From: Chlorobiaceae bacterium
Lineage (GTDB): Bacteria; Bacteroidota; Chlorobiia; Chlorobiales; Chlorobiaceae
Assembly: GCA_013334335.1 (NCBI GenBank)
Contig: JAAXXR010000001.1
Span: 1 to 33,687 of the forward strand
Length of the DNA stretch: 33,687 nucleotides
Direction of reading: 5' to 3'
The notes below the pieces were generated by a model that had not been told where the DNA came from, ran no database searches, and saw nothing but the letters and a program-made list of their open reading frames with translations. Below are positions 27,520-32,992 of the stretch, piece by piece. Numbering within the stretch: position 1 is the first letter of the stretch; each line of letters starts with the position of its first letter. The position numbers and the translations under genes were made by a program.

Positions 27520-27939
27520 TTATTGCGATCGGGCCCCTTTGGAAGCCCTCAGGAGGAAACAGCTGCGTCCCGAACGGTGTGCCCACTGGAAATCCGTCTC
27601 CGCTCCGGAGGGCATGGCGAATTCTGCGCAAAGCTCGTAGGTATCGGACGACCGTTTCGTGTACCCGTATGGCTTCCCGCTTTCCGGATCAGCGATATCG
27701 AGCACGAAACCAGGTGTCTTGCCAAGCGCGTCCAGACTCTCGGGCAGGGATTTGTTGGCGTCCGCGTAGGCATCGACCGCGGCAACGATGCGCTGCAGGT
27801 CCGCGATTCGTTGCCGGTCCAGTCTCAGGTCACGCTGCTCCTCAATGGGACCGAGAACGAACAGGCCCCTGGCGATCGCCGTAATCACGCAGAGCGATAC
27901 GATGACGGCGAGCAGGCGTCCGTTGCCACGTGCCATCAT
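27520..27939 (-). CDS. Pseudopilin-like membrane-anchored protein
   Basis: A 139-aa protein with one N-terminal membrane segment (about 9-28) and a soluble domain resembling the C-terminal part of type II secretion pseudopilins: LDRQRIADLQRIVAAVDAYADANKSLPESL, then DPESGKPYGY, then YELCAEFAM. No prepilin peptidase site (Gly before Phe-Thr-Leu-Glu) is visible, so it is unlikely to be assembled as a classical pilin. GGAGG lies seven bases before the ATG at 27939. The start overlaps the stop of the upstream DUF5671 gene by four bases (ATGA), so the two are translationally coupled. Similar pairs exist elsewhere to my knowledge, but their function is unknown. Confidence 0.75.
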   Translation of the reverse strand: MMARGNGRLLAVIVSLCVITAIARGLFVLGPIEEQRDLRLDRQRIADLQRIVAAVDAYADANKSLPESLDALGKTPGFVLDIADPESGKPYGYTKRSSDTYELCAEFAMPSGAETDFQWAHRSGRSCFLLRASKGARSQ

Positions 27940-28580
27940 GACGACACCTCCTCTCGACGCAAACCCCTGAGATAATAGATGAACACGGTTCCGGAGATCG
28001 CTCCGACCACAGACACCTTGAGCATGAACCGCACGGTCAGTTCGCCGCCAAGCAGATTGAAGATCAGAACCGAAAGGTCGCCGATGATGATCCCCGACGC
28101 AATGAACAGCGTCAGGTAGGTCAGCCATCTTCGAACCCCCGAAACACGGCCTGCAGGAGTGCTCAGCAGTTCGCGGGAAATTTTCGCCGACAGATACAGG
28201 AACACCGGAAACGCCACGATCAGGGACGCTACCGCGCTCCTGATCCGTGAGGCCACCAATTCCTGGAACAGGTTCGGCACGGCGGGATCAGGGAACGCCT
28301 GATCGATCAATACGAACAGGAGGTTCCCGAAATTGAACGCGCTGACATACAGGGTGGCGAAAAGCAGGAGGTAAAAAAACGCCTCCCTTGCCGAAAGATA
28401 CGGCTTCGGCTTTGGCACCGGAACGGGAAAATCGATGTCGGCATATTCCGCCAGGGCACGGTCAACCGGCTCCTGCTGCCATCCGGCCTGCAGGAGGGCC
28501 GCCCGGATACGATCACGCCCGATCCCGCTGGCCAGCGCCCTGTCGATAAAAACGGAAAGATCCGTGCCGCTTTTTTCCAT
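27936..28580 (-). CDS. DUF5671 multi-spanning membrane protein
   Basis: A 214-aa protein with a short N-terminal helical domain (DLSVFIDRALASGIGRDRIRAALLQAGW...VDRALAEY, UBA-like in pattern). It then has the DUF5671 membrane domain with four predicted segments at about 67-90, 112-131, 150-173 and 185-203. Family-like words include AFFYLLLFATLYVSAFNFG, ASLIVAFPVFLYLS and GELTVRFMLKV. The function of DUF5671 is unknown. It is coupled by a 4-bp overlap to the pseudopilin-like gene, suggesting that the products act together in the inner membrane. No strong ribosome site precedes the ATG. Confidence 0.82.
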   Translation of the reverse strand: MEKSGTDLSVFIDRALASGIGRDRIRAALLQAGWQQEPVDRALAEYADIDFPVPVPKPKPYLSAREAFFYLLLFATLYVSAFNFGNLLFVLIDQAFPDPAVPNLFQELVASRIRSAVASLIVAFPVFLYLSAKISRELLSTPAGRVSGVRRWLTYLTLFIASGIIIGDLSVLIFNLLGGELTVRFMLKVSVVGAISGTVFIYYLRGLRREEVSS

Positions 28581-28860: not shown

Positions 28861-29325
28861 TTACCGTTTGTCCGCCTTCGGAAGCGAAGTCAGCAACACC
28901 AGGTGCCGGACGAACAGCACGCTGATGAACAGGTCGATACCGCCGATCAGCAAAACGATTCGCGGGATATCATGGACGATCACGTAGTAGGTGATGATGC
29001 CGGCAAAAAGAGTTCGACCGACAGCATTCGCGAGCGGAATAAACCGCCGTCCCGCCGGATCGCCCGCAGCGTACAGGACAAAACAGCCGATCAGCACCAG
29101 ATCGATCCCGGCGGTGTTCACAAGCAGGGCGTAGACCCCGTCTGCAGGAACGACCGGGCCATGACCGCCGAGACGCAACGCGCTGTTCAGTGACCAGAAC
29201 AGCTCCAGATACTGTTTGAACAACCCTGGCACCATAAGTGGCGCGGCGAGCACTAAATTGAACAAACCCGAGAAGATCAGGACGCCCTTGAATCTTTCGA
29301 GATTTTTGTCGATGGCGGAACTCAT
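28861..29325 (-). CDS. Uncharacterised four-TM membrane protein
   Basis: A 154-aa integral membrane protein I do not recognise. Four hydrophobic segments are visible at about 14-35, 66-87, 99-116 and 122-147, with a polar first loop containing FKQYLELFWSLNSALRLGGHG. The C-terminus is short and basic. I start at the ATG at 29325 because GGAGGT ends five bases before it; a TTG/ATG further upstream would add four residues. No enzymatic or transport motif was seen. It lies alone between two long spacers. Confidence 0.7.
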   Translation of the reverse strand: MSSAIDKNLERFKGVLIFSGLFNLVLAAPLMVPGLFKQYLELFWSLNSALRLGGHGPVVPADGVYALLVNTAGIDLVLIGCFVLYAAGDPAGRRFIPLANAVGRTLFAGIITYYVIVHDIPRIVLLIGGIDLFISVLFVRHLVLLTSLPKADKR

Positions 29326-29712
29326 CCATACCTCCATTGCCTTGTCGGTTTCATGGCTTGAAGACTTACTGATCCGGCATGCATGGTGTTCAGCCTGTCA
29401 TGATTCGCCCCCCAGTCGCCAGCCAAAGGGAAGAGCAGGACAGGGCGCCCCCCTGATCCGGGATGAAGCCCATGCCGTTGCCCGACACGTGCATCGCTCG
29501 TCGAGCCAGGGTTGGAAGAGAGGGGAACAACGCAACAATCTCCGACGGAATGGAGAATCCGCTCCATACATGCCGTTTCTGTATCGTTCAACATAAGGTA
29601 CGGATGCAGGTTTTGCAATCGTCGCCTTCGGGCTTGGATGACCTGCGCTGGAGGGAGTGCCCATGCCCCCGGCAGGTACCGGGGGCAATGGCAGGAGAAG
29701 AAACGGTGGAGG
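29326..29712. other. 387-bp spacer between the sqr operon and the four-TM gene
   Basis: No gene is supported. The right end holds a strong GC hairpin (29664-29687). A 98-codon minus-strand open frame (29322-29618) covers most of it, but its composition does not look like a protein. The promoter of the four-TM gene should be near its left end. Confidence 0.45.
29664..29687 (-). terminator. GC hairpin at the end of the sqr operon
   Basis: TGCCCCCGG (29664-29672) and CCGGGGGCA (29679-29687) form a perfect 9-bp stem with a 6-base loop, extendable by imperfect pairing of flanking TGCC and GGCA. It starts 26 bases after the stop codon of the 52-aa gene. No T-tract follows, so it may end or protect the transcript. 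Confidence 0.5.
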
Positions 29713-29871
29713 TCAGGAGTGACCGCCGGCGACGATGCGGATCATCTTGAAGTTCAGGATGAAAAACCTGATGATCTGCCACGGCACGAACTTGCGCCAG
29801 AACAGCGTGGCCGAATCGGGCACCGGAGGGTAGGCTTCGTCGTAATAGGCCTTGATCTTGTAGTTACCCAT
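29713..29871 (-). CDS. 52-aa small protein downstream of sqr
   Basis: An ATG at 29871 opens a 52-residue frame ending TGA at 29713, starting 48 bp after the sqr stop codon and on the same strand. The N-terminal half is polar with tyrosines and prolines (KAYYDEAYPPVPDSA). The C-terminal half is hydrophobic, aromatic and basic (FWRKFVPWQIIRFFILNF, then KMIRIV), which fits a membrane-surface or tail-anchor helix. The low count of rare residues and clear polarity suggest a real protein. Its place in the sqr transcript suggests a role with SQR at the membrane, such as an anchor or accessory subunit; that is inference. No strong ribosome site was found. Confidence 0.75.
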   Translation of the reverse strand: MGNYKIKAYYDEAYPPVPDSATLFWRKFVPWQIIRFFILNFKMIRIVAGGHS

Positions 29872-29919
29872 GGTTCATGAGTTTTAGGTTGAAGTCAGTG
29901 TCTTGAATCCGGTTGCTTC

Positions 29920-31377
29920 CTACTCCGGAATGAGGTACCAGAACGGATACCCCTTCGCCTTGTGGAAGAAGAGGTAATGCAGGATGAACTTGAGCCAGTG
30001 ACCCGCAAGACCCGCTTCGCCGACCGAATAGGTCATGTCGCGGCCCCATTCAGGATACTTCTCCCAGTCAGGCACGATCGGGAAGATGGTCATCGAAGCA
30101 CCGAGGCCGTCGAAGGAGCCGAAGCCGCCGGAGACGATGCAGGCCGCGCCCATGCGGGCCATCGACGCCTTGTGGTGGTGCTCCTTGTGGCCGCCCTTGA
30201 TCTGCTCGGCGATGTTGAGGGCGACAATCTTGCCGATAACGCCGGAGGGCATGCCGGTACGGGGTGGGGTCGGAAAGATCTGGCGCCCGTTGGGGCTGGT
30301 CTGGGGCTTGGAAATCGGGTGCGGCGGCGCGAATGCGATGCCCGCAGCGTAGATGTTCTTATACAGCGGCGTCTGGTAGATCGTGGGCCAGTCGCCGGCT
30401 GCCCACTCGTCGAAGGGCTTTGCCGAGTAGTCCGCATCGACCTTCATGAACTTGTTCGGCAGGAACATCTTGTCGGTGATGTCGGCGCCACTCTTGTCGA
30501 AGGCCGTCAGACCGACGCCGGAGAAGGAGGGGATCAGCATGGAGAAATCGAACTCCTGTGTCTTCATTTCGCCGTCGAGGTTCTCGTAATGGACGAGGCC
30601 AGGCTCGACCTTGTAGATACCTGCACGGCGGATCCATTTGATGCCGTACTCGGCGAGCAGCGATTCGGTGAATACCTTGGTCGGCGTGATGTAGCCGCCG
30701 CGCTTGATGAAGGCTCCGGCCATGCCGAAGTCTCCGAGTTCGTATTCGTTCGATATCCAGGTGATTTCGGCCATCTTGCTGAGGCCGAGCTTGGAGATCT
30801 CGTAAGCCACATTCAGGATGTATTCGAACGCGGCGCCCTGGCAGGTGGCCATGGCGTGGCCCGTGCCGATGAGGAAGCGCTGCTTCTGGCCGTTCTGCAT
30901 CTTCCTGATGCTCTCCTGAAGCTGCTCCCAGGCATGGGCCGCGTGGCTGTAGGTGCAGACGGAAAGGGAGTTCTTGTCGGGGCCGAGCCCTTCGGTTGCC
31001 TCGAAGTTCAGCTTCGGACCGGTAGCATTGACCAGATAGTCGTAGTCGACGGTCTCGGTCTGCCCGGAGTACTGCTCGTCAGTGTACTCGATGGTCACAA
31101 ACCCCTTGTCGTGTTCGGCATCGCCGTCCGGATGGATGGAAACCGCCTTTGCCTGCTTGAAGATGATCCCCCAGCGGTCATAGACCTTCTGCAGCTTGAA
31201 ACGGACCTGATCGATGCTCATCTGTCCGACGCCGACCCAGATATTGGAGGGAATCCACTGGTAGTAGCTGTTCGGACTGACGACGACGACCTCGTGATGC
31301 TTGCCGAGCTTCTTCTTGAGAAACGAGGCACAGGTATGGCCTGCGACACCGGCACCTAAAACGACGACCTTTGCCAT
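29920..31377 (-). CDS. sqr: Sulfide:quinone oxidoreductase
   Basis: SQR oxidises sulfide to sulfane sulfur/polysulfide and passes the electrons to the membrane quinone pool, feeding photosynthetic electron transport. The 485-aa FAD protein starts with the dinucleotide motif VLGAGVAGH (6-14). Cysteines at 141 (SVCTYSH) and 179 (ATCQGAAFEY) align with the redox pair of known SQRs, and Cys413 (AACIVSGG) is a candidate for the third. The late region has PPRTGMPSGVIGKIVALNIAEQI, and the C-terminus ends in an aromatic, amphipathic segment (HWLKFILHYLFFHKAKGYPFW) suited to monotopic membrane binding. Chlorobaculum tepidum has three SQR homologues (CT0117, CT0876, CT1087); I cannot say which one this matches. 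A small-protein gene follows. Confidence 0.93.
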   Translation of the reverse strand: MAKVVVLGAGVAGHTCASFLKKKLGKHHEVVVVSPNSYYQWIPSNIWVGVGQMSIDQVRFKLQKVYDRWGIIFKQAKAVSIHPDGDAEHDKGFVTIEYTDEQYSGQTETVDYDYLVNATGPKLNFEATEGLGPDKNSLSVCTYSHAAHAWEQLQESIRKMQNGQKQRFLIGTGHAMATCQGAAFEYILNVAYEISKLGLSKMAEITWISNEYELGDFGMAGAFIKRGGYITPTKVFTESLLAEYGIKWIRRAGIYKVEPGLVHYENLDGEMKTQEFDFSMLIPSFSGVGLTAFDKSGADITDKMFLPNKFMKVDADYSAKPFDEWAAGDWPTIYQTPLYKNIYAAGIAFAPPHPISKPQTSPNGRQIFPTPPRTGMPSGVIGKIVALNIAEQIKGGHKEHHHKASMARMGAACIVSGGFGSFDGLGASMTIFPIVPDWEKYPEWGRDMTYSVGEAGLAGHWLKFILHYLFFHKAKGYPFWYLIPE

Positions 31378-31789: not shown

Positions 31790-32992
31790 ATGAGGAACAT
31801 CGTATTCACCGGCAAAGGCGGAGTCGGAAAGACCTCCATCGCTGCGGCAACCGCCGTACGAGCAGCGGCCATGGGGTACAAAACGCTGGTGATCTCAACC
31901 GATCCGGCGCACAGCCTGGGCGATTCGCTGGACATCGAACTGGGGCCGTCACCGGTGAAGATCACGGAAAACCTCTTCGGCCAGGAGGTGAGTGTCTACG
32001 GCGACCTGTCGCTCAACTGGGAGATCGTCCGTGAACATTTCGCGCACCTCATGGCAGTCCAGGGCATCCAGGGCATCTACGTCGAGGAGATGGGGGTGCT
32101 CCCCGGCATGGAGGAGCTCTTCTCGCTCTCCTACATCAAGCGCTACAACGAGTCGAACGAGTACGACCTGCTGGTGGTGGACTGCGCGCCAACCGGCGAG
32201 ACCCTGCGCCTGCTCTCCATACCCGAGACCTTCGGCTGGATGCTCAAGCTGATGCGTAACCTCGAAAAGTTCGTGGTCAAGCCGATGATCCGCCCGCTCT
32301 CGAAACGGATCGGACGACTGCACGATTTCGTGCCGGAGTCGGAGGTCTACGACCAGGTCGACCACCTTTTCTCGTCGATCGACGGCATTATCGAACTGCT
32401 GTCGGATGCGTCGAAAACGACGGTGCGCCTCGTCATGAATCCCGAAAAAATGGTGATCAAGGAGTCGATGCGGGCACTCACGTACCTGAACCTCTACAAT
32501 ATCACGGTCGACCAGATCATCATCAACCGTGTCTACATGGACGACGTCGACGGCCAGTACTTCAAGGGCTGGAAGGAGATCCAGAAAAAGTACATCGAAC
32601 AGATCGAGAGCTCGTTCGCGCCGATCCCGATCACCAAAGTCCCGATGTTCAGCTCGGAGGTGCTTGGCCTTGAGATGCTCAGGAAGGTAGGAGAGACGGT
32701 CTATGGTGATCGCAATCCGCTCGATATCTTCTACCACGAAGAGCATGTGGAGATCGTGAAGGCCGGTGAAGGCCACTACCAGATGAGGCTCCGCCTGCCG
32801 TTCGTGTCGGACAACCGCATGGAAGCGAACGTGTCCCAGATCGGCGACTCGATGACCGTGCGGATCGGCAACTATCAGAAAGGGGTGGTCCTGCCGGTCT
32901 TCCTGGCCGGAATGAGGGTCACCCATGCCGGCTACGAAGGAGCGTGGCTGGTCATCGAGTTCAGGAAGAAAGAGCCGACGACAGCGATATGA
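31790..32992 (+). CDS. Get3d-like ATPase (ArsA family) with alpha-crystallin domain
   Basis: A 400-aa ArsA/Get3-type ATPase. The deviant Walker A GKGGVGKT is at 8-15, the [12 protein letters not shown] switch I follows, and [13 protein letters not shown] is the switch II region. The last 85 or so residues ([20 protein letters not shown]...[15 protein letters not shown]) are beta-rich and match the alpha-crystallin/HSP20-like domain. That defines the Get3d subgroup described in cyanobacteria and plants. The CxxC zinc motif of eukaryotic Get3 is absent. A strong GGGAGGAG precedes the ATG. Get3 proteins bind hydrophobic tail segments; the client of Get3d is not established. No arsenite transporter (arsB) or arsR is next to it, so arsenic resistance is unlikely. 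Confidence 0.93.

Follow-up and report, generated by a model that had tools for sequence, protein, structure and literature searches.

A Conserved Small Protein Encoded Directly Downstream of sqr Is a Candidate Second Subunit of One Sulfide:Quinone Oxidoreductase Clade

Results

A 52-Codon Frame Follows sqr

The stretch of DNA analyzed here (hereafter, the window) comprises 33,687 nucleotides from a member of the Chlorobiaceae. On its minus strand, a gene for a sulfide:quinone oxidoreductase (SQR) is followed by an open reading frame of 52 codons (ATG start, TGA stop; translation MGNYKIKAYYDEAYPPVPDSATLFWRKFVPWQIIRFFILNFKMIRIVAGGHS), whose product we refer to as the companion; sqr ends at 29920 and the companion ATG lies at 29871, leaving a gap of 48 bp. 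The first-pass annotation had described this frame, its strand, and its distance from sqr, together with a 9-bp GC hairpin behind it, and all of these are borne out. The features of the locus are as follows.

31790–32992, plus strand: ArsA-type ATPase with an HSP20-like C-terminal domain, divergent from sqr
29920–31377, minus strand: sqr, 485-residue SQR by fold and three invariant cysteines, read here as type IV (SqrD)
29872–29919, minus strand: 48-nt spacer between sqr and the companion, with little structure (−2.3 kcal/mol)
29713–29871, minus strand: companion frame, 52 residues (dN/dS 0.063; conserved next to sqr)
29818–29847, minus strand: Tyr/Pro-rich stretch YYDEAYPPVP, companion residues 9–18, absent from 38-residue forms
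29728–29787, minus strand: predicted amphipathic helix with the conserved core, companion residues 29–48 (from the linked AF2 model, where it is helix 531–550 of the read-through, and from column frequencies in 137 pairs)
29664–29687, minus strand: GC hairpin 3′ of the companion (9 Watson-Crick pairs and one G-U pair)
28861–29337, minus strand: unnamed hydrophobic 158-residue protein without a Pfam match, downstream of the companion
27936–28580, minus strand: DUF5671 protein, following the 158-residue protein

SQR, usually regarded as an enzyme of one chain, is a main entry point for electrons from sulfide in many Bacteroidota as well as in Campylobacterota and the green and purple sulfur bacteria. 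In the literature that we searched, which covers the work on C. tepidum SQRs in part and where an earlier mention is possible, we found no described second subunit. Judged by its modeled fold and three invariant cysteines, the window sqr product is an SQR, with predicted sulfide:quinone activity: the closest structural matches of the model are the A. ferrooxidans and Aquifex SQRs (TM-score about 0.83–0.87 by target length), Cys141, Cys179, and Cys413 are invariant in 66 sequences, and a profile alignment places Cys413 opposite the C-terminal Cys of the A. ferrooxidans enzyme. A gene 89% identical to the window sqr is found at positions 112431–113885 of a 2,154,946-base genome (G003), a place that we take to be that of CT0117 in C. 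tepidum TLS. Because its orthologue sits where CT0117 should lie, we infer that the window SQR is an orthologue of CT0117 and of type IV (SqrD). CT0117 of Chlorobaculum tepidum is a type IV SQR, a constitutive SqrD that serves mainly for growth at 2–4 mM sulfide (PMC4584964).

The Companion Frame Is a Protein-Coding Gene under Purifying Selection

Among 16 distinct Chlorobaculum sequences, the companion has a dN/dS of 0.063 (the final 200 codons of the adjoining sqr give 0.082), and the value of near one that the first-pass annotation had named as contrary evidence is thus not what is found. Variable sites in these sequences fall at codon positions 1, 2, and 3 in 11, 4, and 38 cases, respectively, and none of the 16 contains an in-frame stop. 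A shorter, 38-residue form found beside a second SQR paralogue (see below) is likewise under purifying selection (pN/pS 0.125). That the frame arose by chance might be argued from its shortness, from the lack of a family match, and from the scarcity of Shine-Dalgarno-like sequences, which precede the companion in only 5 of 131 loci, but the low dN/dS, the concentration of variation at third positions, and the conservation between phyla lead us to reject this reading as next to impossible. The companion frame is a real protein-coding gene. The expectation that it would be too small for gene calling was half right: on three plasmids the homologous frame is an annotated CDS (NCBI pipeline), so it is not always missed, although it is nameless there ("hypothetical protein").

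The 80 nt 3′ of the companion stop have a folding energy of −34.4 kcal/mol (z −4.6) and include the hairpin, which is without a T run in the window's genome. Since in several to many relatives a hairpin at the same place is followed by a T run, as in an intrinsic terminator, the transcript carrying sqr and the companion probably ends just 3′ of the companion, and these hairpins suggest that the two genes are co-transcribed.

The two frames share phase in the window, as they would if the companion were a C-terminal extension of SQR made by stop readthrough or frameshifting. Over 104 distinct loci, however, the gap varies from 14 to 271 nt and falls in phase 0, 1, and 2 in 38, 23, and 43 cases, the companion has its own ATG, and in several genomes a dispersed repeat sits in the gap with both frames intact. 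This scatter of gap length and phase leads us to reject the extension, which we consider very improbable. The repeat itself is hairpin rich and about 100 nt long, and separates sqr from the companion in several Chlorobaculum genomes (in loci L008, L011, L014, L016, and L052; also G011:C1:71688–71792 and G012:C218:14979–15100); there are 19 copies in G012, 7 in G011, 2 in G003, and none in the window's genome.

The Companion Is Strictly Linked to One SQR Clade

Across 61 genomes (the window's own and its relatives), the companion and SQRs of this clade co-occur and adjoin, and those genomes of the set that are without this SQR clade are without a convincing companion. We also drew 394 genomes from the phylum and compared matches to a companion profile with matches to an SQR profile place by place. 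The companion is found directly 3′ of SQR on the same contig at 104 of 105 SQR places, with a median gap of 42 nt, the sole exception being a 498-base SQR fragment cut by the end of a contig, and it is present in all 96 SQR-bearing genomes. Companion matches not adjoining an SQR number 20 in this sample: five are copies at contig ends (contig ends checked: G206:C97, G172:C101, and G005:C145), one adjoins an SQR remnant (G349), and the others are either short or interrupted frames or weak matches with E-values of about 1e-4 and above, so that no convincing orphan companion was found in the 394 genomes.

A separate species-level scan, in which one genome was taken per species and the best 80 SQR loci were collected with peptide patterns characteristic of SQRs in this clade, gave the same picture with genomes partly shared with the first sample: every SQR locus with downstream DNA has a companion as judged by HMM, the DNA ending too early in L089 and L098 and being cut 16 residues into the companion in L052. 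Where SQR is duplicated (G026, G210, and G230), the companion follows the copies as well. The first-pass annotation had proposed to look for the frame in related sqr loci, and it is present beside sqr in essentially every one.

In eight genomes from the same genus or family (G001, G014, G018, G032, G263, G288, G309, and G324), some of them incomplete assemblies, no SQR of this clade was found and no companion either, and loss there appears to be joint for both genes. Some damaged SQR genes still have a companion, with internal stops in L120:1015–2469 and G206:C13:569–2020 and only a fragment left in L173 (G349).

Pairwise distances of SQR and companion correlate with r = 0.886 (permutation maximum 0.18), as would equally be expected of any vertically inherited gene pair. 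Taken together, the companion shows near-absolute co-occurrence, adjacency, and co-inheritance with SQR, and it is specific for this SQR clade.

The Family Extends to Other Phyla and to Divergent SQRs

Outside Bacteroidota/Chlorobiota, the sample consists of three companion-bearing plasmid records, from Thiodictyon (Gammaproteobacteria), Sulfurovum (Campylobacterota), and Marivivens (Alphaproteobacteria). In each, a companion homologue annotated as a hypothetical protein lies 3′ of an SQR that is only 52–58% identical to the window SQR, and the next gene is different each time. In Chlorobium-like genomes, a second SQR paralogue of roughly 42% identity is followed by its own 38-residue companion (e.g., G022:C1:96472–96573), and in several more families of Bacteroidota the companion lies behind divergent SQRs. 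The paralogue and its companion are found together at the following places.

L038–L044 and L175–L178, e.g., G022:C1:96472–98049: second SQR paralogue with 38-residue companion, Chlorobium-like genomes

SQR-like genes outside the clade have no companion nearby (0 of 11 genes in six genomes), nor was one found near the 28%-identical SQR of a Methylocella plasmid. Assignment to a known family was rejected: 39 companion members gave no significant match in Pfam or NCBIfam, named small-subunit families included, the companion had no significant match in PHROGs, and a profile of the 39 matched no PDB chain at E-values up to 10.

A Conserved Core Lies in a Predicted Amphipathic Helix

The companion has a core of the form Q-x-x-[RK]-F-x-x-[LI]-[NS]-x-[KR], which in the window corresponds to Q32-x-x-R35-F36-x-x-L39-N40-x-K42. 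In weighted column frequencies over 137 distinct SQR/companion pairs, Gln32 is invariant, Phe36 is found in 94%, Asn40 in 91%, Lys42 in 89% (otherwise Arg), and Leu39 in 89% (otherwise Ile), and no Cys is conserved. The N terminus is variable among the same pairs; a YxDExYPPxP stretch is kept there in most members and is missing from the 38-residue and some other short forms. Basic and aromatic in character, the predicted helix has a moderate amphipathic moment (0.27–0.40) and a mean Eisenberg hydrophobicity of 0.24–0.60, and contains the conserved Gln, Arg, Asn, and Lys residues; from its composition, it looks more like a membrane-surface helix than a clean transmembrane segment. Such conservation of Gln32, Phe36, Asn40, and Lys42 would suit specific contacts rather than lipid binding alone.

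Structural Models and Covariation

Because the two window genes happen to share phase, sqr and the companion could be modeled as one continuous chain, with in-frame stops read as Gly; this linked AF2 model is a modeling device and not a claim of readthrough. Companion helices are predicted at its residues 20–27 and 29–48. The SQR part has one C-terminal helix, at residues 460–474 when modeled alone and at 457–474 in the linked model, and AF2 confidence for SQR residues 451–460 and 461–470 changes from 59 and 71 (alone) to 79 and 80 (linked), while for residues 341–360 it changes from 90/85 to 76/73. The models thus lend weak support to docking of the companion near the SQR C-terminal helix. 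In Foldseek comparisons with type I SQR structures, the linked and SQR-only models differ by a TM-score of 0 to 0.02, a difference too small to assign the companion helix a position.

Mutual information was calculated for the 137 SQR/companion pairs (about 54 effective). SQR residues 411–485, which hold 14% of the variable columns, account for 25% of the top 100 pairs, and residues 121–240, with 24% of the variable columns, account for 37%; covariation does not single out the SQR C-terminal domain, and we derive no docking site from it.

Discussion

The strict linkage, together with the low dN/dS, supports the small SQR partner that the first-pass annotation had put forward, and a partner is the best explanation of these data, with the physical interaction predicted from sequence. 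In our judgment, the companion is probably an obligate small second subunit of the type IV (SqrD) SQR clade and its sister clade, with binding suggested by conservation and modeling. It would be made from the same transcript as SQR, and its C-terminal part would form a short basic, aromatic, amphipathic helix that, most likely, packs on the SQR C-terminal helix at the membrane surface and next to where the quinone enters. There, it may help to keep SQR on the membrane and may shape or stabilize access for the quinone.

Strict linkage and specificity for one clade would be equally well explained by a dedicated helper that contacts SQR only transiently without belonging to the working enzyme, whether as a small inhibitor or as a factor for folding, assembly, or stability, and the small size and variable N terminus of the companion are in keeping with such a role. 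This is the main rival to a subunit, and we consider it rather unlikely; stoichiometric co-expression from what would be one transcript, and a helix that appears to lie at the membrane surface, fit a subunit slightly better.

The probable shared transcription unit and the hydrophobic, basic helix would also suit a separate small membrane protein of a sulfide-oxidation operon, acting for instance in quinone, sulfur, or polysulfide handling and making no contact with SQR. Against this stand the specific invariant polar residues and the genomic distribution, no convincing companion being found apart from this SQR clade and none beside the other SQR-like genes of the same genomes. The absence of a conserved Cys speaks against it too: because there is none, the companion is not a persulfide carrier, and a role as a sulfur carrier was rejected on the same ground. 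We regard a separate pathway protein as improbable.

Most SQRs have two amphipathic helices in the C-terminal domain, the domain that binds quinone and membrane (PMC9666304). If the companion is a subunit, one possibility, which we put forward tentatively and with more doubt than confidence, is that the second C-terminal amphipathic helix, part of the same chain in type I SQRs, is here provided in trans by the companion. On that reading, type IV SQR would consist of two subunits and would rely on an overlooked protein for membrane docking and quinone access. The predicted companion helix resembles the C-terminal helices of the type I enzymes (A. ferrooxidans 3SZ0/3T31; Aquifex 3HYW) in being amphipathic, and may likewise lie near the quinone site, but it is the product of a separate gene, and no homology was detected in the PDB search.

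Small subunits of membrane redox enzymes are already known as a kind. CydX of cytochrome bd oxidase (PMC4325964, PMC6005532) is likewise a very small protein, mostly one helix, that is encoded with a membrane quinone enzyme, is linked to it across many genomes, and is hard to annotate. In contrast to CydX, the companion adjoins sqr rather than cydAB, and no sequence relation between the two was found; CydX is described as a single hydrophobic helix, whereas the companion helix has conserved Gln, Arg, Asn, and Lys residues and looks bound to the membrane surface; and the function of CydX has been tested, whereas the subunit role of the companion is predicted. YjlC, the modeled partner of the type II NADH dehydrogenase YjlD (PDB 9a63), may be a further parallel, likened here from the entry title as an accessory of a related monotopic flavin:quinone enzyme. 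The enzyme that the companion would partner is the type IV SQR, SqrD (CT0117; PMC4584964).

The companion adds a nameless, well-supported protein family that accompanies SQR in Chlorobiota, Bacteroidota, Campylobacterota, and two classes of Pseudomonadota. If one SQR clade does have such a strictly linked small partner, SqrD produced in its absence may be incomplete, and the ways in which type IV SQR should be expressed, purified, and assayed would change accordingly. Such a partner could also be tested as a reason why SQR types differ, and its sequence could serve to mark this clade in metagenomes.
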